The position numbers were made by a program, and so were the translations under genes. From positions 1-30,432 of IMG/VR virus record IMGVR_UViG_3300035698_000774: a stretch of 30,432 bases of DNA; one strand, 5' to 3'. Positions 843 to 11,577 of the stretch are shown here, one piece after another. The stretch is from a virus. The notes beneath the pieces were generated by a model. The model was not told where the DNA came from. It did no database searches and was given only the letters and a program-made list of their open reading frames with translations. Positions within the stretch are counted from its first letter, which is position 1; each line of letters opens with the position of its first letter.

Positions 843-1006
843 TATGTAACACCTCTCTTTAGTTAAACTTAAGGTACCCTAATGATGCCCTAAGGTTAAC
901 CTCGGGTTACCCTAAGGTTATCTTTATTGTTCTTCTTCCTTTCTTTCCCTATCCTAGACTCTCTTCTTTCAGTCTTCTCTCTAGGTTATCTTAAGGGGAG
1001 TTCCTC
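843..1006 (-). promoter_or_regulatory. Purine-rich 5' leader with an imperfect stem-loop
   Basis: No gene is seen between 843 and 1026. Read on the minus strand, roughly 920-985 is a mostly A/G tract. Closer to the 842 start codon, CCTAAGGTTAACC (889-901) and GGTTACCCTAAGG (905-917) can pair at 11 of 13 positions around a 3-base loop. The same two arms also contain a direct repeat, CCTAAGGTTA, at 889 and 911 (22-base offset). This fits the leader of a transcript starting at the upstream candidate promoter. It has no U-run, so it is not an obvious terminator. Confidence 0.4.
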
Positions 1007-2860: not shown

Positions 2861-3063
2861 TATGTTTGCTCTCCTTCTATTATTTCGAATCTTGACAAAT
2901 GGCATGAAGCAATCTTATGTCCTTCTGAATCATAGGCAGTAGCATATGGAGCTCCCCCAAATGTACCATCTGAAATTTCAATATCATAGATTGTACCAGC
3001 TTCTAATATATACTCATACCCCCCACGCTGTTGCACGTTAAATTTAGCTTTTACTGTATTCAT
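2860..3063 (-). CDS. Small beta-rich protein (67 aa)
   Basis: A 67-residue protein starting MNTVKAKFNVQQRGGYEYI. Alternating hydrophobic residues, Gly-rich turns and the phrase GTIYDIEISDGTFGGAPYA suggest a small beta-barrel such as an SH3-like fold. Its start overlaps the stop of the GP88-family gene (ATGA). Function unknown. Confidence 0.6.
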   Translation of the reverse strand: MNTVKAKFNVQQRGGYEYILEAGTIYDIEISDGTFGGAPYATAYDSEGHKIASCHLSRFEIIEGEQT

Positions 3064-3713
3064 GCGACACTCCTTTCTAGTTTAATTCTTATTACTTTAT
3101 GCATGCTCAGACCATGTGCTGGATAGGCAATAACCTTGACATCCTTAGACCAACATGCTCGACACGTTCCGCACTTGCCATTATTGTTATAAGCTTGGCA
3201 AAGTGTTTGACCAACAGCTAATTCAGCCGGACTTGGTACGATTGTGCTAGTGGTTTTACCTGCAATTTCAATACCTTCGACGCTATCACTTGACAATCTA
3301 ACAACGACATTTGGTAGCTTCTCCATTAGCTTAATTATAGTTCTAAACTTGGCGAACTTATGCATCCTTGTGGGTAGCCAGTGGTTACAATGAGGTGTTC
3401 TAGTCATTACATCTAACATTTTACGAGCTAGCTTGATTGTATACATATCACCGCTATCAAACCATCTAAAATAGCGATCATTATCTAATTCAGCTACCAT
3501 TTCATCAACCCACTCGTTACGCTTCCAGTCGGTTTGATTATGGATTCTAGGTGCTTTCACATTAGGAAACCGGTAGTTCCCCGTGGTTGCATAACAGCCC
3601 TTACAAGCGTCTACAAGCTCTCCATCGGCCCCTTTTGAAGCAGGGCATGTGTCTATAGCTTGTAATGACCACGACCTACATGGCATCTTACTTGCTTTGC
3701 TTAATTTAATCAT
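3060..3713 (-). CDS. GP88-family cysteine-rich phage protein
   Basis: A 217-residue protein with an AGGAG ribosome binding site. It has two cysteine groups: C12, C23, C37 and C40 in the N-terminal part, ending in the phrase ACKGCYATTGNY, and C172, C181, C184 and C187 in GKCGTCRACW near the C-terminus. Between them is RWFDSGDM (83-90). This layout matches what I know as the 'gene product 88' family (PF17338), found widely in phages and mobile elements with no proven function. The cysteines could hold an iron-sulfur cluster or zinc. It resembles the N-terminal region of DUF5131 (Gp37/Gp68) radical-SAM-like proteins, but that link is tentative. Neighbours are small uncharacterised genes. Confidence 0.75.
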   Translation of the reverse strand: MIKLSKASKMPCRSWSLQAIDTCPASKGADGELVDACKGCYATTGNYRFPNVKAPRIHNQTDWKRNEWVDEMVAELDNDRYFRWFDSGDMYTIKLARKMLDVMTRTPHCNHWLPTRMHKFAKFRTIIKLMEKLPNVVVRLSSDSVEGIEIAGKTTSTIVPSPAELAVGQTLCQAYNNNGKCGTCRACWSKDVKVIAYPAHGLSMHKVIRIKLERSVA

Positions 3714-3769
3714 TTTGTGTACTCCTATTAATACTAATTAGCTACCTATTTCTAAGTAACTAAGTGTTA

Positions 3770-3973
3770 TTAACTGATTACTTCATCTTCTTTTACAGTA
3801 ATCCACCTTTGCGATTGATAGCAGAATCCCGTGTACATTGTAGGGCTAGTATCATCATCAAATGCACCTCTTATTTGGTATGATTCTAGTAATTCGGTGC
3901 TTGCAACTGTTGATATTTCTCGCTTTATAGCTTGCCTTACTAGTGCGATTAAGACTTCACGAGGGTTTTTCAT
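3770..3973 (-). CDS. Hypothetical protein (67 aa)
   Basis: Starts MKNPREVLIALVRQAIK with AGGAG upstream; its ATG overlaps the preceding stop by 4 bases. The N-terminal half is an amphipathic basic helix. The C-terminal half is mixed and contains Tyr/Trp/Phe (MYTGFCYQSQRW). Its MKNP start recalls the 2487-2765 gene, but the rest is not alike. No family recognised. Confidence 0.6.
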   Translation of the reverse strand: MKNPREVLIALVRQAIKREISTVASTELLESYQIRGAFDDDTSPTMYTGFCYQSQRWITVKEDEVIS

Positions 3974-4131
3974 TTGATTGCTTCTCCTATTGTTTGTCTT
4001 GTTTCGAATGATAACTTGCCTGTAATTGGATCACGTACTTGTGCTGGTAAGCTTGTATATTTTGGCCCATTACTAGTGCCATATATCATGCTGTTTTGAT
4101 TCTTTTCAGCTCTGTTTTTATAGTTATCCAT
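3970..4131 (-). CDS. Small hydrophilic protein (53 aa), start moved to a coupled ATG
   Basis: The open frame reaches back to an ATG at 4188, but that start has no ribosome binding site and would overlap a better candidate in another frame. The ATG at 4131 shares a base with the stop codon of the 4131-4220 membrane peptide (TAATG), which points to coupled translation. From there the 53 residues start MDNYKNRAEKNQN and are hydrophilic throughout, with the phrase QVRDPITGKLSFE. No family recognised. Confidence 0.55.
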   Translation of the reverse strand: MDNYKNRAEKNQNSMIYGTSNGPKYTSLPAQVRDPITGKLSFETRQTIGEAIK

Positions 4132-4220
4132 TATATTAAGTATCCAATTATAGTTATTAACGATGTACTTAATATGCTTGCCGCCCATATCATTAAGCCG
4201 AACTTCATATTGTTTGACAT
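4131..4220 (-). CDS. Single-helix membrane peptide (29 aa)
   Basis: ATG at 4220 with an AGGGGAAC ribosome binding site gives 29 residues starting MSNNMKFGLMIWAA, of which residues 7-29 are a hydrophobic helix. The stop overlaps the next start as TAATG. It is the second of three tiny membrane peptides in this block. Confidence 0.5.
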   Translation of the reverse strand: MSNNMKFGLMIWAASILSTSLITIIGYLI

Positions 4221-4229
4221 GTTGTTCCC

Positions 4230-4325
4230 CTAGTTATAGTAAAAATACAATTGAGCTACGTAAAGTGCCGTATGAATTAAACCACCGGCAGTCAATGCTA
4301 TTGTAACTGCTTGAATAATAAACAT
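4230..4325 (-). CDS. Single-helix membrane peptide (31 aa), first gene of the left block
   Basis: ATG at 4325, preceded by CAGGAGCAC. The 31 residues start MFIIQAVTIALTAGG and are nearly all hydrophobic until the C-terminal YFYYN. It is the first gene after the 1-kb gene-free region, in the position of T7 gene 0.3, so it would be among the first phage genes expressed. No family recognised. Confidence 0.5.
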   Translation of the reverse strand: MFIIQAVTIALTAGGLIHTALYVAQLYFYYN

Positions 4326-4670
4326 TTAGTGCTCCTGATTTGCTAATTGAATGATACTTAGCAAGCACCATTTAGCTAGCAAACTAGCTAGAGGTTTAGC
4401 TTACAATCTAGTATACTACTGACACGCTGTATCTGTGTTCATGTTCGTGCTATGATTGTTTGACTAAACTTTTAGAACTTGGTGGCTGGCTATTAGTCCG
4501 ACTCTATCGGTAGCTCACTTCACTTCAAGTGCAACCCCTTTATTTGATTTTGCAGTAAGGTTAAAAAATCTGCATGTTCTATCGGCTTTATAGCGTAGCT
4601 AACTTGCCTCTGGTTACCGGCTTGTTGTTGCCGTGTTTCCATGGTGCCCATTCTACCAACCTAGGAAATT
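4326..4670. promoter_or_regulatory. Gene-free upstream region of the early-like block
   Basis: No supported gene in either strand. On the minus strand, CTAGTATAC at 4408-4416 repeats the core of the candidate phage promoter but not its flanks. A perfect 7-bp stem, TAGCTAG-CAAA-CTAGCTA (4373-4390), follows it in the leader of the 4325 gene. A TTGCAC hexamer near 4535 (minus strand) might be a host -35 element, but no matching -10 is clear. By position, host-type early promoters would be expected here. I found no tRNA. Confidence 0.35.
4373..4390 (-). promoter_or_regulatory. Perfect 7-bp stem-loop in the leader of the first early-like gene
   Basis: TAGCTAG (4373-4379) and CTAGCTA (4384-4390) form a perfect stem around a 4-base loop. 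It lies about 50 bases upstream of the ATG at 4325 and just downstream of the partial promoter core at 4408-4416. It may protect the 5' end of a leader transcript. There is no U-run. Confidence 0.35.
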
Positions 4671-4925
4671 AAATATATATACCCCCAATGGGATATCCCG
4701 ATGGACGGTAGTATTGCCTCGAAAGATATAGAACGCCCACGCGATCCTTATACGTGCCCACGCGATAACAATCACGCGTAGCAAGAACCATGCCAGAAAG
4801 AAAAAACAGAGACATGCAAGACTCGTGCCAAGGTTGTAGTCTTAACCGCATGTGTACCCGATGGACAACCGCATGTGCACGGTACTCAATACACCCCACC
4901 ACAGACCCATGCAAGATCCATGCCA
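4671..4925. repeat. Short direct repeats flanking the DnaA-box array
   Basis: This stretch holds several pairs of short direct repeats: GCCCACGCGAT at 4735 and 4756 (21-base offset, about two helical turns), AACCGCATGTG at 4844 and 4867, and a longer imperfect pair beginning CATGCAAGA at 4813 and 4909. An AT-only run, ATTAAATATATATA, sits at its left edge near 4669-4682. Composition changes sharply here towards more G+C than the neighbouring genes. No protein-coding signal is convincing. Confidence 0.5.
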
Positions 4926-4932
4926 ACCCCAG

Positions 4933-5074
4933 TTACCCACAGGTTACCCACAGGTTATCCACAGGCTCCCCCAAAGGTTACCCACAGGTTACCCACAGGT
5001 TATCCACAGGTTACCCATAGGTTATCCACAGGCTCCCCCATGGTTATCCACAGGTTACCCACAGGTTACCCATA
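4933..5074 (+). repeat. Tandem array of 11 DnaA-box-like 9-mers with 11-bp period
   Basis: Eleven 9-mers in the same orientation, mostly joined by GG. Exact TTATCCACA occurs at 4955, 5000, 5022 and 5044. TTACCCACA (one change) occurs at 4933, 4944, 4978, 4989 and 5055. TTACCCATA (two changes) occurs at 5011 and 5066. Spacing is 11 bases within three runs of 3, 5 and 3 boxes. The runs are split by two related C-rich spacers, CTCCCCCAAAGG (4966-4977) and CTCCCCCATGG (5033-5043). TTATCCACA is the strongest E. coli DnaA site (box R1/R4 of oriC). The period is close to one helical turn, so all boxes would face nearly the same side. Possible roles are a replication origin, DnaA titration, or a terminal repeat used in concatemer processing, as at T7 ends. 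Confidence 0.85.
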
Positions 5075-5217
5075 GTGTACAACAGGTGGACACTATGTGT
5101 ACAACAGGTGGACAGCATGTGGACAACCCATGGACAACCCTAGGTGTACATGCCTGTACAATAGAGAGTATAGTGGCCTTGTAGCATGTACGTACCATGT
5201 ACAGAAATAGTTGTACA
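5075..5217. repeat. Cluster of TGTACA palindromes and GTGTACAACAGGTGGACA direct repeats
   Basis: TGTACA, a 6-base palindrome, occurs six times: 5076, 5098, 5145, 5155, 5198 and 5212, plus a TGTACG at 5187. An 18-base direct repeat begins at 5075 and again at 5097 (22-base offset, two turns of the array period). TGTGGACAA at 5118 is one change from a DnaA box on the other strand. The cluster continues directly from the DnaA-box array, so the two may form one site. Confidence 0.6.
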
Positions 5218-5324
5218 GGAGATGTATGGGGGAAGTCTTACTTTTTATATAATTAATTAGGTACACGAACTTTTGCTGTATTTTTAGAGCTTACCATTCA
5301 TCTAGCCGGATCCCCAGATTCTAT
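5218..5324. other. AT-rich gap after the late genes
   Basis: No gene seen. An AT-only stretch, TATATAATTAATTA, lies near 5246-5259, about 170 bases from the nearest DnaA-type box. It could serve as an unwinding element if the array is an origin. On the minus strand it could also hold a weak -10-like box, but no -35 is clear. Confidence 0.3.
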
Positions 5325-5564
5325 TTAGAATAATCTTTCGACATCCAATAACATACCCTTGGGGATCCTAAGGTAGTCCTGATGTCCTTCACCAGTATGT
5401 GTGCAGTCCCTTGCCACAACCAAGTGATCCTCCGTATAGTCCACAAAGAACCCTACGGTCTCCTGTGGGCAGATAGGCCATAAGGCAACCTCACGGTCAT
5501 CTGTCTGGCATGCATCGTTCCACAGGACATACAGGATCTTATGGTGCATGTGACAGTAGATCAT
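5325..5564 (-). CDS. Hypothetical protein (79 aa), last gene of the late block
   Basis: A 79-residue frame starting MIYCHMHHKILYVLWND and overlapping the upstream gene by 26 bases. No ribosome binding site is clear at this ATG; starts at the downstream ATGs are possible. The chain has a mixed alpha/beta look with VGFFVDYTEDHLVVARD in the middle. No family recognised. It is the last gene before the repeat-rich region. Confidence 0.45.
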   Translation of the reverse strand: MIYCHMHHKILYVLWNDACQTDDREVALWPICPQETVGFFVDYTEDHLVVARDCTHTGEGHQDYLRIPKGMLLDVERLF

Positions 5565-5812: not shown

Positions 5813-8050
5813 CTATAAGGTTAAGTCTTCTATTCCGTCTTTAATAAGATCAGATACAAGATCAGTTATATAGGCTTTCTCACCTAAGTTAGCTACGTTA
5901 CCGTTAGCAGTAATTGTTACATTGTCTATAGTGAGACTTACAGTACCCACAACAGGCCCAGTAGGAACAAATGCTCCTGTACCACTTGATGTGATATCAG
6001 ATAAAGTATTAGCTACAGATCCGTTGAAGTCTTGTCCACCAGCACCAGACATGGTAAAGTCATCCAAGGTTACCCCTAGGAAGCCATCGGTGGCATAAGA
6101 GCCTGTGGCTGATCCTGTGGTGTCTCCTAGGGTTATCCCGAGGGAGCCTATGGTTATGACCTCACCAGATGAGCTTAGAGACACGCTGTCTAAGGTTAAC
6201 CCAAGTGTACCACTGTACCCATGAAGTCCTGTTATAGAGGATGTGACAGAGTCCAAAGTTACAGATACACTGCCAGTAACACCAGATCCAAAGGATCCAG
6301 TACCAGACATGGTAGTATCTTCTATTGTTAGCGACACAGTACCTTCTGTCAGAAGGCTGCCTGTAATGTCACTTGTAACATCATCTAGAGTTGTGTTACC
6401 AGATCCGACTGCTGCCATGACTCCTGTTATTGAGCTAGTGACATCATCGGCTGTTATAGAGATAGTACCGTTGGTTTTGTATGTTGCAGTGATAGAACTT
6501 GTATAGTCGTCCAAGGTTAACCCTAGGGATCCACTATACTCATGTACAGCTGTTATGCTACTTGTCATAGCATCTAATGTAATAGAGACTGTACCAGTAA
6601 CCACTGGGCCTGTGTACGTGGCTGTGATAGCCGATGTAACATTGTCCAAGGTTTCACTTACGGTTCCCGTAGGGGAACTGACAGCCTTCTGTAAGGCCAG
6701 CACAAATGTACCCCAGTTAGTATTACCACCAGCCCCGTTAAGAGTTATTGTTCCAGCCTGTGCAGCTGCGGTTGTCTGTAGTGCTTGACCGAAGCCACCA
6801 GCACTTGATGCCGCACCCGATCCATCTACACCGTTGTCATTATCCATGACTTCAGTTAAAGGACTTGGGAAGGTATTAATTACACCAACACCATTACCAC
6901 CATCTTCCTGACCCATGAAGGCCACAACCATACAGTTATCTTCTGTAGGAGTTAATGAGGTAAGTACAGCAGAGGTATCCGATCCACCTGTGTTTGAGTT
7001 AGAGGAGTCTATAGCACTTACATTTCTATATACGACTAAGCAGCCCCAAGCTCTCTCACTCGCAGAAGTAGTAAAGGTGTAACTTGCAGGTTCACTTGAG
7101 GCAACCCTGTAGGACAACCTGTTAGAACTTGAACCAGCAGTATTGTGATTCTGTAAAGCAGTAAAGCCAGTTAGTAAGTTACATCTATCTGCACCATCAG
7201 AACTATGGAAGGCAATAATATAATCACCATCAACAGTACCCGCAGGTACATTAATGACCATGCTAGTTGTATTGTTCTGACTGTTAGCGTTCTCACCTAT
7301 ACGTACAATGTCTGGGTTAGGTGGAGCAGTATGTGTTGCCGTAATAGCACTTGTAACATTGTCCAAAGTAACATCAAGACCTTCAGGTGATGAGCTACTA
7401 AGTACAAAGGATATCTGAGCCATACTGTCTGAGTCATCAGCACTGGCTACAGCAGTTACAGTTCCACCAGTGAAGTTATCAGCAGTGGACATTAATGCTT
7501 CAAAACTATTTGAGTACTGTTCATCAGTCTCAGTAGTTCCTGTCCAACCTATCGAACCAATGCCACCACCGTTATCAAAACCAATGACAGCTGATATAGT
7601 TGCATCATCGGCATCTACAGATCCCATAGCACAGCTTGTATCTACATTGACGCCCCCATTACTATCAGTTACTACATTAGTGAACATTACCGCTTGGTCA
7701 CCTACACCTGAATAACTAGTTGCTTCTATTACATGAGAACTGAAACCATTAACGGCATCAGTAGTTACTAGGTTAGTTCCACTTGCAGCAGCAATGCCTG
7801 CATCATTGATAGCAAATGCAGAAAGTCGCACCTTACCACCAGCACCCGCAGGTGACTCGATGGCATCTACTTCAGTCATTGTTTGACCACCATAAGTCAT
7901 GGTAGGAGCAAAGGTTCCAGTATCGTTATACTCACCAGCAAAGGCGACAAGCACCCGATCAGTACCAGCACTAACTGTCTTGCTAAAACTAAATTCAGAA
8001 GAACCCGATGGGCCTGAACTTGTATCAGCGTCTAATACTGCTACTGCCAT
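5813..8050 (-). CDS. Large repeat-containing adhesin or fiber-like virion protein (745 aa)
   Basis: A 745-residue protein with a GAGG ribosome binding site. Residues 1-225 and 245-455 look like two related beta-sandwich domains, each with phrases of the type RVLVAFAGEYND or DYIIAFHSSDGAD and a later cysteine-containing segment. A short repeat, consensus GTVSLTLDDVTSSITG, occurs once at about 225-240 between the domains. It then occurs about 12 more times from residue 461 to about 730. The last 15-20 residues are a different, acidic tail. There is no signal peptide. The layout suggests an elongated stalk with two binding domains. Its location among small structural-looking genes after the terminase suggests a second receptor-binding or decorating protein beside the tail fiber at 12735-14237. 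This is inference from composition and context. Confidence 0.6.
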   Translation of the reverse strand: MAVAVLDADTSSGPSGSSEFSFSKTVSAGTDRVLVAFAGEYNDTGTFAPTMTYGGQTMTEVDAIESPAGAGGKVRLSAFAINDAGIAAASGTNLVTTDAVNGFSSHVIEATSYSGVGDQAVMFTNVVTDSNGGVNVDTSCAMGSVDADDATISAVIGFDNGGGIGSIGWTGTTETDEQYSNSFEALMSTADNFTGGTVTAVASADDSDSMAQISFVLSSSSPEGLDVTLDNVTSAITATHTAPPNPDIVRIGENANSQNNTTSMVINVPAGTVDGDYIIAFHSSDGADRCNLLTGFTALQNHNTAGSSSNRLSYRVASSEPASYTFTTSASERAWGCLVVYRNVSAIDSSNSNTGGSDTSAVLTSLTPTEDNCMVVAFMGQEDGGNGVGVINTFPSPLTEVMDNDNGVDGSGAASSAGGFGQALQTTAAAQAGTITLNGAGGNTNWGTFVLALQKAVSSPTGTVSETLDNVTSAITATYTGPVVTGTVSITLDAMTSSITAVHEYSGSLGLTLDDYTSSITATYKTNGTISITADDVTSSITGVMAAVGSGNTTLDDVTSDITGSLLTEGTVSLTIEDTTMSGTGSFGSGVTGSVSVTLDSVTSSITGLHGYSGTLGLTLDSVSLSSSGEVITIGSLGITLGDTTGSATGSYATDGFLGVTLDDFTMSGAGGQDFNGSVANTLSDITSSGTGAFVPTGPVVGTVSLTIDNVTITANGNVANLGEKAYITDLVSDLIKDGIEDLTL
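5860..6670 (-). repeat. Tandem protein repeats in the adhesin gene (about 12 units)
   Basis: Codons for residues about 461-730 of the 745-residue protein encode degenerate units of 16-28 residues around [ST]-[IV]-TLD-x-[VMYF]-TSS-[IA]-T-[AG]. Well-kept units include GTVSITLDAMTSSITAVH, GSLGLTLDDYTSSITATY and GSVSVTLDSVTSSITGLH. Diverged ones include GTVSLTIEDTTMSGTGSF. Repeat number could change by recombination or slippage. Confidence 0.65.
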
Positions 8051-9745: not shown

Positions 9746-9895
9746 TTAAATATCTTTGAGCATTTGTTCACGCTTCTTTTGGGCTTTCATGGCCTTGCTC
9801 AGAGCACCATCCCCTTTAAGTAGAAGTTGAGCACCATCTTTACGGGCCTCCTTCTTCTTATTCTTCTTTCCTTTCAATCCGTCAAACATTCCCAT
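9746..9895 (-). CDS. Small lysine-rich protein following the terminase (49 aa)
   Basis: The ATG at 9895 overlaps the stop of the large terminase as TAATG. The 49 residues start MGMFDGLKGKKNKKKEARKDG; about a third are Lys or Arg. The N-terminal MGMFDGLKG looks like a short hydrophobic anchor. A DNA-binding packaging accessory is one possibility; no family is recognised. Confidence 0.55.
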   Translation of the reverse strand: MGMFDGLKGKKNKKKEARKDGAQLLLKGDGALSKAMKAQKKREQMLKDI

Positions 9896-11577
9896 TACAT
9901 ATGTCCTCTTGTGTTTAGTAAATTAGGGGCGGTAGATGTGTGACCAAACTCAGCCATCATCTCATCCAATTCTTTCTGAACCCACTCTTCACGCTTGCGA
10001 TCCAAGTTGTCCTGTGGGGTAATACCCATGTCTTCGATAAAGAAGGCAACAGCACCAGCCACAGCTTCTAATCTATCATCATGTAGTAAAGCATCCTTTT
10101 GATTCATTATTCGAGTCATCTGATAGAACAGTTGATAGTTCTTATCGTGATTCTTCAAGTCATTCTCAATTAGAGACTTATCTACTACAAGTAGGTGACG
10201 CATCATTACAGGCTCAAGTATATCAATGATCCTCTTCTCTTTCATGGTAGAGTTCCATGGAGCATCTTCAACACTGCAATTATGTATAGGAGTCATGATA
10301 GGTCTCAATAACTTGAGGTACATACCATCACCAAAGTTAGGCTCTACAATAACTCTGTTAACCTTAAATGCCTTAGCAGTATAAGATAACTTAGCTAACG
10401 TAGCGTCATCATAGCCTCCCTCTAGACCTCCAGCTGCTATTAAGAATAGTAGTGATCCTAGTTTCTTAACAATCGCATAACCCACTTCATCAGAACCACG
10501 GCCAGCGGGATCAATGTACATAATAGTGGTGTCATAGTTACTCCACTCTTTAGAGGTCATTGCAGGTTTAAGCCACTTGTCACCCATGAATCCACAGTTC
10601 CCAAGTTCTAACACTTGTTCATCTGCTGATCCCCAAGCAACATTTATAGGTGCCTGATCTACATTGATATCCATCACTATCAAGTCTTTCAACTTAAGGG
10701 GATATCGTTCCGCGTCAGATAGTGAGGTATCCAACATGAACTGAAGAGCAAAACCTGCTTTACCATAGGAAGCCTCACGTTCTAGTAAGTCTTCGTGGGT
10801 GAATCTACGGGGATCCACCGCTGCACCCGCTTCTAAGTCGAGTGTAGCATAGAAAGGAGCTAGCTTTCCAGCATAGTTTATCATCTTCTGTGTTTCAGGC
10901 ATTCTGGAAGGCCATATACGGAAAGTATATCCCCTCTCAGGTAGTTCATTGTACACAGACATCTCTGACTGTGGAGTACCTAGGTATACAATATCTGTAT
11001 GTCCTTCTGGTACAATAATAGCATCATACTCTCTTACACGTTCAAGTAGTCTTTCTCGTTGTAATTGTGTAAGCGAGTTGTTAGGTGTTTCAACATCATC
11101 CGATACGATGCGAGTCGCTCGACTTCCTGTAATTTGACCTGTGATTCCTGCTGATTTAACCGATGGAGACTGAGATACGCTAGCACCGCCCACATCAAAA
11201 GAAATATTACTATCACGGCGACCTGCCTCCGGTTTTAAATGTTTAAGTATAGGAACAGTTTCAATTAACTGCTTAACGAAAATACTAAAGGCATCTGCCC
11301 TGTCTTTACTTGCAGATGTTACTAATATCTTTTCATTGACTGGATCTTTATACAACCACCAGACAACTAATGCTCCAGTAAGGAAGGACTTGCCTACACC
11401 ACGGTAAGCTAATACTCCCCTACGGGATGGGCCTGTAGCTAGAAACTCGGCTATGTCATACTGAACTGGTGTAGGATCTGGAAGTCTTAAATGCATCCAT
11501 ATAAAATACACGAAGTTTCTGAAGTCATCCTTAAGGTGAATCTCTAGCTCTCTATTGTTCATATTGGCCCTTGGCAT
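9895..11577 (-). CDS. terL: Terminase large subunit (packaging ATPase and nuclease), T7 gp19-like
   Basis: At 560 residues it is close to T7 gp19 (586). The ATPase domain has a Walker A motif AYRGVGKS (57-64), a Walker B segment RIVSDDVE (156-163) and a following TPQSE coupling-type motif near 201. The C-terminal nuclease domain shows MYIDPAGRGSDE (D356), IVEPNFGDG (E412, D417) and LLHDDRLEAVAGAV near 505-518, the expected acidic residues of the RNase H-like fold. It drives DNA into the procapsid through the portal and cuts the concatemer. It overlaps the preceding small gene by 19 bases and directly follows the small subunit region, as in T7. Confidence 0.95.
   Translation of the reverse strand: MPRANMNNRELEIHLKDDFRNFVYFIWMHLRLPDPTPVQYDIAEFLATGPSRRGVLAYRGVGKSFLTGALVVWWLYKDPVNEKILVTSASKDRADAFSIFVKQLIETVPILKHLKPEAGRRDSNISFDVGGASVSQSPSVKSAGITGQITGSRATRIVSDDVETPNNSLTQLQRERLLERVREYDAIIVPEGHTDIVYLGTPQSEMSVYNELPERGYTFRIWPSRMPETQKMINYAGKLAPFYATLDLEAGAAVDPRRFTHEDLLEREASYGKAGFALQFMLDTSLSDAERYPLKLKDLIVMDINVDQAPINVAWGSADEQVLELGNCGFMGDKWLKPAMTSKEWSNYDTTIMYIDPAGRGSDEVGYAIVKKLGSLLFLIAAGGLEGGYDDATLAKLSYTAKAFKVNRVIVEPNFGDGMYLKLLRPIMTPIHNCSVEDAPWNSTMKEKRIIDILEPVMMRHLLVVDKSLIENDLKNHDKNYQLFYQMTRIMNQKDALLHDDRLEAVAGAVAFFIEDMGITPQDNLDRKREEWVQKELDEMMAEFGHTSTAPNLLNTRGHM

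Follow-up and report, generated by a model that had tools for sequence, protein, structure and literature searches.

This locus raises the question of why a T7-like phage should carry a regular array of sequences that resemble binding sites of the host initiator DnaA. The window, i.e. the whole stretch of DNA analysed here, is a 30,432-bp virus record from IMG/VR, classed as linear. Its first-pass annotation had offered three explanations of the array: a DnaA-dependent origin, a DnaA sink, or a terminal tandem repeat in which the match to the DnaA box is secondary. Our results support this three-way interpretation in part: the terminal repeat is favoured and is the best supported of the three (by the place of the array, its phasing, the poly-C tracts and mapped DTRs), while a DnaA role is possible but less favoured.

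The assignment of the window to the T7-like phages was borne out by the identification of a terminase large subunit (TerL), head-tail adaptor, capsid, tail and internal virion protein. A small terminase subunit, a scaffold, a portal-type adaptor, an exonuclease and a holin-type lysis protein were also assigned, and all genes with an assigned function are T7-like and encoded on the minus strand. The TerL is approximately 48-56% identical to its relatives from Roseobacter, Pseudomonas (LUZ100), Bordetella and Limnohabitans phages. For the 745-aa protein encoded between the terminase and the array, tblastn and a family search returned a Maribacter phage protein as the sole match (40% identity over 210 aa, 28% of the length). 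The arrays lie within a 1.8-kb non-coding gap with the packaging side on the right and the early side (Gp88) on the left, i.e. between the terminase and the first early gene, which is the location of T7-like terminal repeats. The autographiviruses CRP-125 and CRP-113 exhibit the same order of terminase, long non-coding gap and Gp88-like gene, and from this shared gene order the contig appears to cross the genome terminus; synteny with Berlinvirus and Molineuxvirinae phages lends further support to a terminus in the gap. The window is a single contig, from which part of the genome is missing, and the putative DTR has presumably been collapsed to one copy in the assembly. Features of the locus are collected in Table 1.

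Table 1. Features of the array region and its genomic surroundings (positions in the window; a dot denotes no strand)
Feature	Position	Strand	Description or basis
Weaker 11-bp phased array, unit CCCTAAGGTTA	870..920	+	TRF-type repeat search
Gp88 (PF17338), early-side gene adjoining the array	3060..3713	-	Pfam
Non-coding gap, putative terminus region	3714..5538	.	ORFs, synteny
Main array	4933..5074	+	11 units TTAYCCAYA, 11-bp phase, runs of 3/5/3
C-rich spacer GGCTCCCCCAAAGG, poly-C tract	4964..4977	+	Sequence; cf. PMC5923468
C-rich spacer GGCTCCCCCATGG, poly-C tract	5031..5043	+	Sequence; cf. PMC5923468
Second array, six TTGTNCAC-type units, exact 11-bp phase	5074..5137	-	TRF 5070-5127, 5075-5138
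TTCCCCCATA tract, cf. the tract after the T7 DTR start	5226..5235	-	Sequence scan
AT-rich stretch, about 75% A+T	5236..5274, inside 5220-5279	.	Composition
745-aa protein between terminase and array	5813..8050	-	No PHROG or Pfam match
Terminase large subunit, T7 type	9895..11577	-	phrog_38, 1.9e-106

The main array was recovered as first reported: eleven 9-mers in one orientation and in three runs, all on the plus strand, with starts at 4933, 4944, 4955 / 4978, 4989, 5000, 5011, 5022 / 5044, 5055, 5066. They comprise four exact copies of TTATCCACA (4955, 5000, 5022, 5044), five of TTACCCACA (4933, 4944, 4978, 4989, 5055) and two of TTACCCATA (5011, 5066), flanked on both sides by GG, with the exception of AG before the first unit and GT after the last; on the gene (minus) strand the array reads TGTGGRTAACC. 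The reported 11-base repeat held as well, the step being 11 except for 23 across the first and 22 across the second of the two spacers, so that the register is shifted by one base at the first. The spacers are mutually related and both C-rich, and their poly-C tracts fit the picture of T7-like terminal repeats, within which 10-bp and 12-bp repeats and poly-C tracts have been described (PMC5923468). The 142 bp of the array contain 11 units; dinucleotide shuffling of the entire window gave at most 2 (200 shuffles) and shuffling of positions 4901-5200 at most 1 (500 shuffles), and the TRF score of the array is 187. No two perfect boxes are adjacent at 11 bp, and every 11-bp neighbour of a perfect box has C at position 4.

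Extending the earlier observation, we found that the main array is directly abutted by a second array in the opposite orientation (units TTGTACACT, GTGTCCACC, TTGTACACA, CTGTCCACC, TTGTCCACA and TTGTCCATG), in which position 5 varies (C/A) and position 4 is always T. This second array fits the degeneracy of DnaA sites, and to judge from its units part of the structure looks DnaA-like. The unit of the weaker array further away differs by two bases from the main unit, CCCACAGGTTA. On the gene strand, TTCCCCCATA precedes the arrays in the order that matches the relatives, so that a poly-C tract stands shortly before the array, as in T7-like terminal repeats. A weak (7/11) match to AAAAATCTGAG, the DTR-start motif discussed below, lies 42 nt before the CCCCC of this tract, and a search with up to 2 mismatches returned no match at the expected position in the window; by analogy with T7, the DTR is predicted to start near 5257 on the minus strand. 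The AT-rich region is located about 85 bp from the second array. By its unit the array does not belong to the class of the T7 heptamer repeats: CCTAAAG has no copy in the array region and one elsewhere in the window.

A blastn search with the region identified arrays of the same 9-mer in the Berlinvirus phages A7, P483 and NJ2, Eapunavirus phiEap-1 and Przondovirus 175002, as well as in the Molineuxvirinae FBKp16, PmP19 and Kp7 and in Vibrio phage BD5. Those examined adjoin early genes or sit between these and the terminase, and for the most part they run opposite to the genes; the window shares both the location and the strand relation with A7, P483, NJ2, FBKp16, PmP19, phiEap-1 and Kp7. In Shigella phage A7, for which a 177-bp DTR has been mapped by sequencing (1-177 and 39882-40058; PMC8427288), the TTATCCACA array at 22-147 lies inside the DTR. 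In the Berlinviruses L225-L228, with TerL 96-98% identical, the edges of the DTR are kept, with CTTATGG/CCTTATG-type repeats instead of the box-like units, and T7 carries CCTAAAG at the equivalent terminal place. Of the 135 terminase loci for which 700 bp or more of downstream sequence was available, only A7, P483 and one weak case contain three or more units within 200 bp. A TerL query from Molineuxvirinae against viral_contigs yielded nothing usable. Scans of viral_contigs with the pattern TTATCCACANNTTATCCACA were rejected as evidence on T7-like phages, since many unrelated phages matched; they served as control in the analysis of the substitution spectrum and pointed to the link with Gp88 described below.

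Analysis of the regions downstream of T7-like terminases reveals that phased repeats as such are common. Strong periodicity was detected in 40 of 154 regions, as opposed to a single one in the shuffled control, and in 34 of the 40 at lags of 10-13 or 20-26, while on the upstream side of the terminase lag 21 and further multiples of 3 predominate, as expected of coding sequence. A 9-mer is repeated at least three times within 300 bp in 45 of 96 distinct regions (none when shuffled), and it is almost always a different one between the 45; the TTATCCACA core is found in one of the 96. The window array conforms to this pattern of 11-12-bp phased repeats with a unit sequence that is free to differ. 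The phasing at 11-12 bp and the place are therefore widespread, and the unit is largely lineage-specific and replaceable. Non-conservation of the TTATCCACA core in relatives while another part of the unit is kept had been named beforehand as an outcome that would speak against DnaA, and this is largely what we found. We also found that AAAAATCTGAG occurs with at most 1 mismatch in 86 of the 154 loci (4 shuffled), that CCCCC follows within 70 nt in 80 of these 86 (median 42 nt) compared to 7% of random windows, and that the periods detectable after the motif are 11-12 bp or multiples thereof. T7-like phages (L142-L301; e.g. L242, L248, L228, L164) thus share a signature of AAAAATCTGAG, CCCCC about 42 nt further on and often an 11-12-bp array, which could predict genome ends in metagenomic contigs.

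The variation of the units can be compared with the rules of DnaA binding, whose consensus TTWTNCACA and relaxed form HHMTHCWVH both have T fixed at position 4 (PMC12371093). The main array contains four boxes that are perfect by the consensus TTWTNCACA, from which the box of the phage's own host may differ. C is present at position 4 in seven of the 11 units and position 5 is invariant; the main array exhibits neither the variation of oriC type, with T fixed at 4 and 5 free, nor adjacent consensus boxes 2-3 bp apart. The proposal that the one-base variants are lower-affinity DnaA sites is thus not supported: the T-to-C change at position 4 breaks both patterns, and such a C almost never occurs in phased arrays of DnaA boxes elsewhere, with 3 cases among 260 viral and 4 among 298 cellular anchors, found with a pattern that permits either base. 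The difference between 7/11 in the window and 4/298 in cellular arrays has a P-value of about 2e-9, with the reservation that the position-4 counts are not fully independent, as units duplicate and some of the phages are closely related. Arrays with C at position 4 form eight stretches in viral_contigs, none of them in a record that matches the T7-like TerL profile.

The same contrast emerges from the one-mismatch neighbours of TTATCCACA. Ten T7-like arrays, which were found by similarity to the window array and hence favour similar units, have 16 changes at position 4 (15 of them T-to-C) and none at position 5, while the corresponding numbers are 1 and 19 in the arrays of Gp88 phages, 5 and 28 in other phage or viral arrays, and 4 and 17 in cellular arrays (Fisher P-values from 6e-7 to 2e-9 for T7-like versus other spectra). 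Counted per phage, position 4 is changed in 7 of 10 T7-like phages versus 1 of 15 others (P-value 0.002) and position 5 in 0 of 10 versus 9 of 15 (P-value 0.003). With variation at position 4 and none at position 5, DnaA's rules appear to fit the other arrays and not the T7-like ones.

Taken together, these results lead us to regard the array as probably a set of terminal short repeats for genome-end formation, which has here taken a DnaA-box-like form. In a search of the open literature we found no published description of T7-like terminal repeats in DnaA-box form, nor any paper on DnaA boxes in such repeats, an absence that proves little. That terminal repeats take part in the formation of concatemers and in packaging has been established for T7 and T3 by work cited in PMC4925675 and PMC5923468. 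The short repeats would act as an assembly platform at the concatemer junction, where phasing by one helical turn would allow a protein to assemble cooperatively on one face of the DNA, and this assembly would help concatemer processing or cutting, duplication of the DTR and packaging. The candidate binder is most likely encoded by the phage, e.g. the small subunit of the terminase or another factor involved in end processing. Host DnaA could probably occupy the four perfect boxes; the variation of the units suggests that DnaA sequence rules do not maintain T7-like arrays, and DnaA binding would then be a side effect or a recruited extra. The DnaA likeness of the array may accordingly be either recruited or incidental. 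What counts against the terminal-repeat reading is that four units are perfect DnaA boxes and that TTATCCACA is found again in at least five T7-like groups, a pattern poorly explained by an incidental match alone.

Among the alternatives, the one that survives best, though we hold it to be unlikely, is that host DnaA polymerises on the phased boxes, opens the AT-rich stretch and aids the start of replication or the duplication of the ends. The four perfect boxes and their 2-bp head-to-tail spacing, which is preferred by E. coli DnaA (PMC11317965), would suit such loading, but the invariant T at position 4 is replaced in seven of the 11 units, and perfect boxes are never neighbours at 11-12 bp. 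The two opposed arrays beside an AT-rich stretch recall oriC, but position 5 is invariant in T7-like arrays; the same 9-mer is shared by several T7-like groups, but the boxes are missing from most T7-like phages, among them close relatives of A7. Loading is further favoured by the Gp88 podoviruses (see below), which have arrays of true DnaA degeneracy between the terminase and the early genes. Against it weighs the fact that T7 starts its replication with its own polymerase and primase-helicase. A DnaA-dependent function of the array is, in our judgement, doubtful, if conceivable.

It is improbable that the array is a sink, with an effect like that of datA, by which the many boxes carried on replicating phage DNA would titrate DnaA and shut off initiation in the host. 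The hallmarks of such a sink are DnaA boxes, an IHF site and DnaA-ATP hydrolysis. Chromosomal DnaA boxes do titrate DnaA in E. coli (PMC12371093), and an array within the DTR would occur in two copies per genome and be abundant late in infection. The window, however, holds only four consensus boxes, and a sink requires neither a fixed position at the genome end nor strict phasing. The position-4 spectrum is likewise contrary to titration, from which little would be gained because lytic T7-like phages degrade the host DNA.

We consider it very improbable that the array is a DNA-entry signal, at which a host protein bound to the first-entering end would hold or pace the entry, as at the injection stop signal of T5. 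Entry of T5 is characterized by the A1/A2 proteins and a two-step DNA transfer; among the genes assigned in the window, which covers part of the phage genome, there is no homolog of A1 or A2. Its injection stop signal consists of repeats, palindromes and DnaA boxes (PMC13250531), the T5-like Proteus phage Stubb (L595) carries TTATCCACA and TTACCCACA approximately 130-210 bp inside the end of its PhageTerm-predicted terminal repeat, and T5-type entry-linked genes are reported for some T7-like rhizobial podophages (PMC7844081 and PMC7862964); the array of A7, however, fills the middle of the DTR and marks no stop point. Finally, it is hardly credible that the array is an artefact of assembly or of tandem duplication, or that it belongs to a gene, since arrays are alike in independently sequenced isolates and the ends of A7 were sequenced directly, while the 110-aa plus-strand ORF that overlaps the main array was rejected as coding because the period of 11 bp shifts the frame and all assigned genes are on the minus strand.

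Scans for pairs of the 9-mer revealed podovirus contigs in which a homolog of Gp88 (61-71% identical to that of the window) follows a DnaA-box array. Of 65 loci selected solely for their Gp88 protein, 19 contain three or more TTWTNCACA boxes within 250 bp of upstream sequence, compared to none of 1300 shuffles, and the commonest repeated 9-mer upstream of Gp88 in the 65 loci is TTATCCACA. Arrays located 0.5-1.5 kb upstream of Gp88, on both strands, were observed in L592, L593, L582, L538, L567, L524 and L546, and also in L057. The podoviruses with Gp88-linked arrays are not T7-like by their terminase; L057 combines a different type of terminase with a T7-type primase-helicase, and its array separates a terminase block and an early block that diverge from each other. 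The Gp88 records that were searched gave no match to a T7-type RNA polymerase, in contrast to P483, which was used as the control and did match. Gp88 was rejected as a strict partner of the array, as 46 of the 65 loci, CRP-125 and MW202484 have no box cluster. To go by their degeneracy, the arrays of the Gp88 podoviruses look like real DnaA sites and could be candidate DnaA-dependent origins. As a tentative possibility, several podovirus groups have independently placed arrays for host DnaA at their genome ends, for opening, duplicating or processing them; if this is true, in Gp88 podoviruses that lack an RNA polymerase of their own it would be DnaA that opens the origin for a T7-type primase-helicase.

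Phased units were also observed in other contexts. Arthrobacter phage BillyTP (L594) contains TTATCCACA-GG-TTGTCCACG-GG-TTATCCACA in 11-bp phase, 37-79 from the right end of the record, and blastn matches in EvePickles and Tiff81 are also near record ends. The Pantoea plasmid pSOE2 (L412, 3417-3620) has two runs of seven perfect TTATCCACAGG with a period of 11 bp, and an unrelated virus (L600 and L602) has three TTACCCACAAC units between AT-rich, apparently inverted arms.

If the array is a terminal repeat, the terminal unit has in some T7-like lineages become a perfect DnaA box, and the array enables a test of whether a lytic phage with its own replisome recruits the host initiator at its genome ends. 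Change at position 5 as opposed to position 4 separates DnaA-selected arrays from look-alikes computationally, and the Gp88 podoviruses are the better place to seek DnaA-dependent phage origins.

Several known systems can be compared with the window array. The oriC arrays and "double DnaA boxes" of E. coli resemble it in having 9-mers of the same orientation 2-3 bp apart (PMC11317965), but in DnaA sites position 4 is constantly T and changes are tolerated at position 5, while the main array does the reverse. The Gp88 podoviruses that are not T7-like (L057, L592, L593) share with it the 11-bp phase, the interval between terminase and early genes, the Gp88 neighbour and a nearby C-rich motif; they differ by true DnaA degeneracy (TTATGCACA, TTATACACA, TTTTCCACA), arrays on both strands, a reversed orientation relative to Gp88, another terminase and the lack of a detected T7-type RNA polymerase. 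The injection stop signal of T5 likewise combines repeats and DnaA boxes close to a terminal repeat (PMC13250531), but it belongs to another phage family and entry system. The arrays of Molineuxvirinae (FBKp16 and Kp7 of Klebsiella, PmP19 of Proteus) and of BD5 are composed of TTATCCACA in the gap before the early genes and likewise run opposite to the genes, but they consist mostly of perfect boxes with wider spacing. The Berlinviruses A7, P483 and NJ2 have TTATCCACA/TTACCCACA units at 11-12 bp, opposite to the genes and in the interval between terminase and early genes; unlike the window, they have a looser spacing with interleaved CCTAAAG- or CCTAGAG-like elements, enterobacterial hosts, and no opposing TTGTNCAC array. 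Finally, the CCTAAAG heptamers of T7 and the 10/12-bp repeats of the Yersinia fPS phages are, like the window array, phased, located in or around the DTR and accompanied by poly-C (PMC5923468), while their units differ in sequence from those of the window, the T7 unit being unlike a DnaA box.
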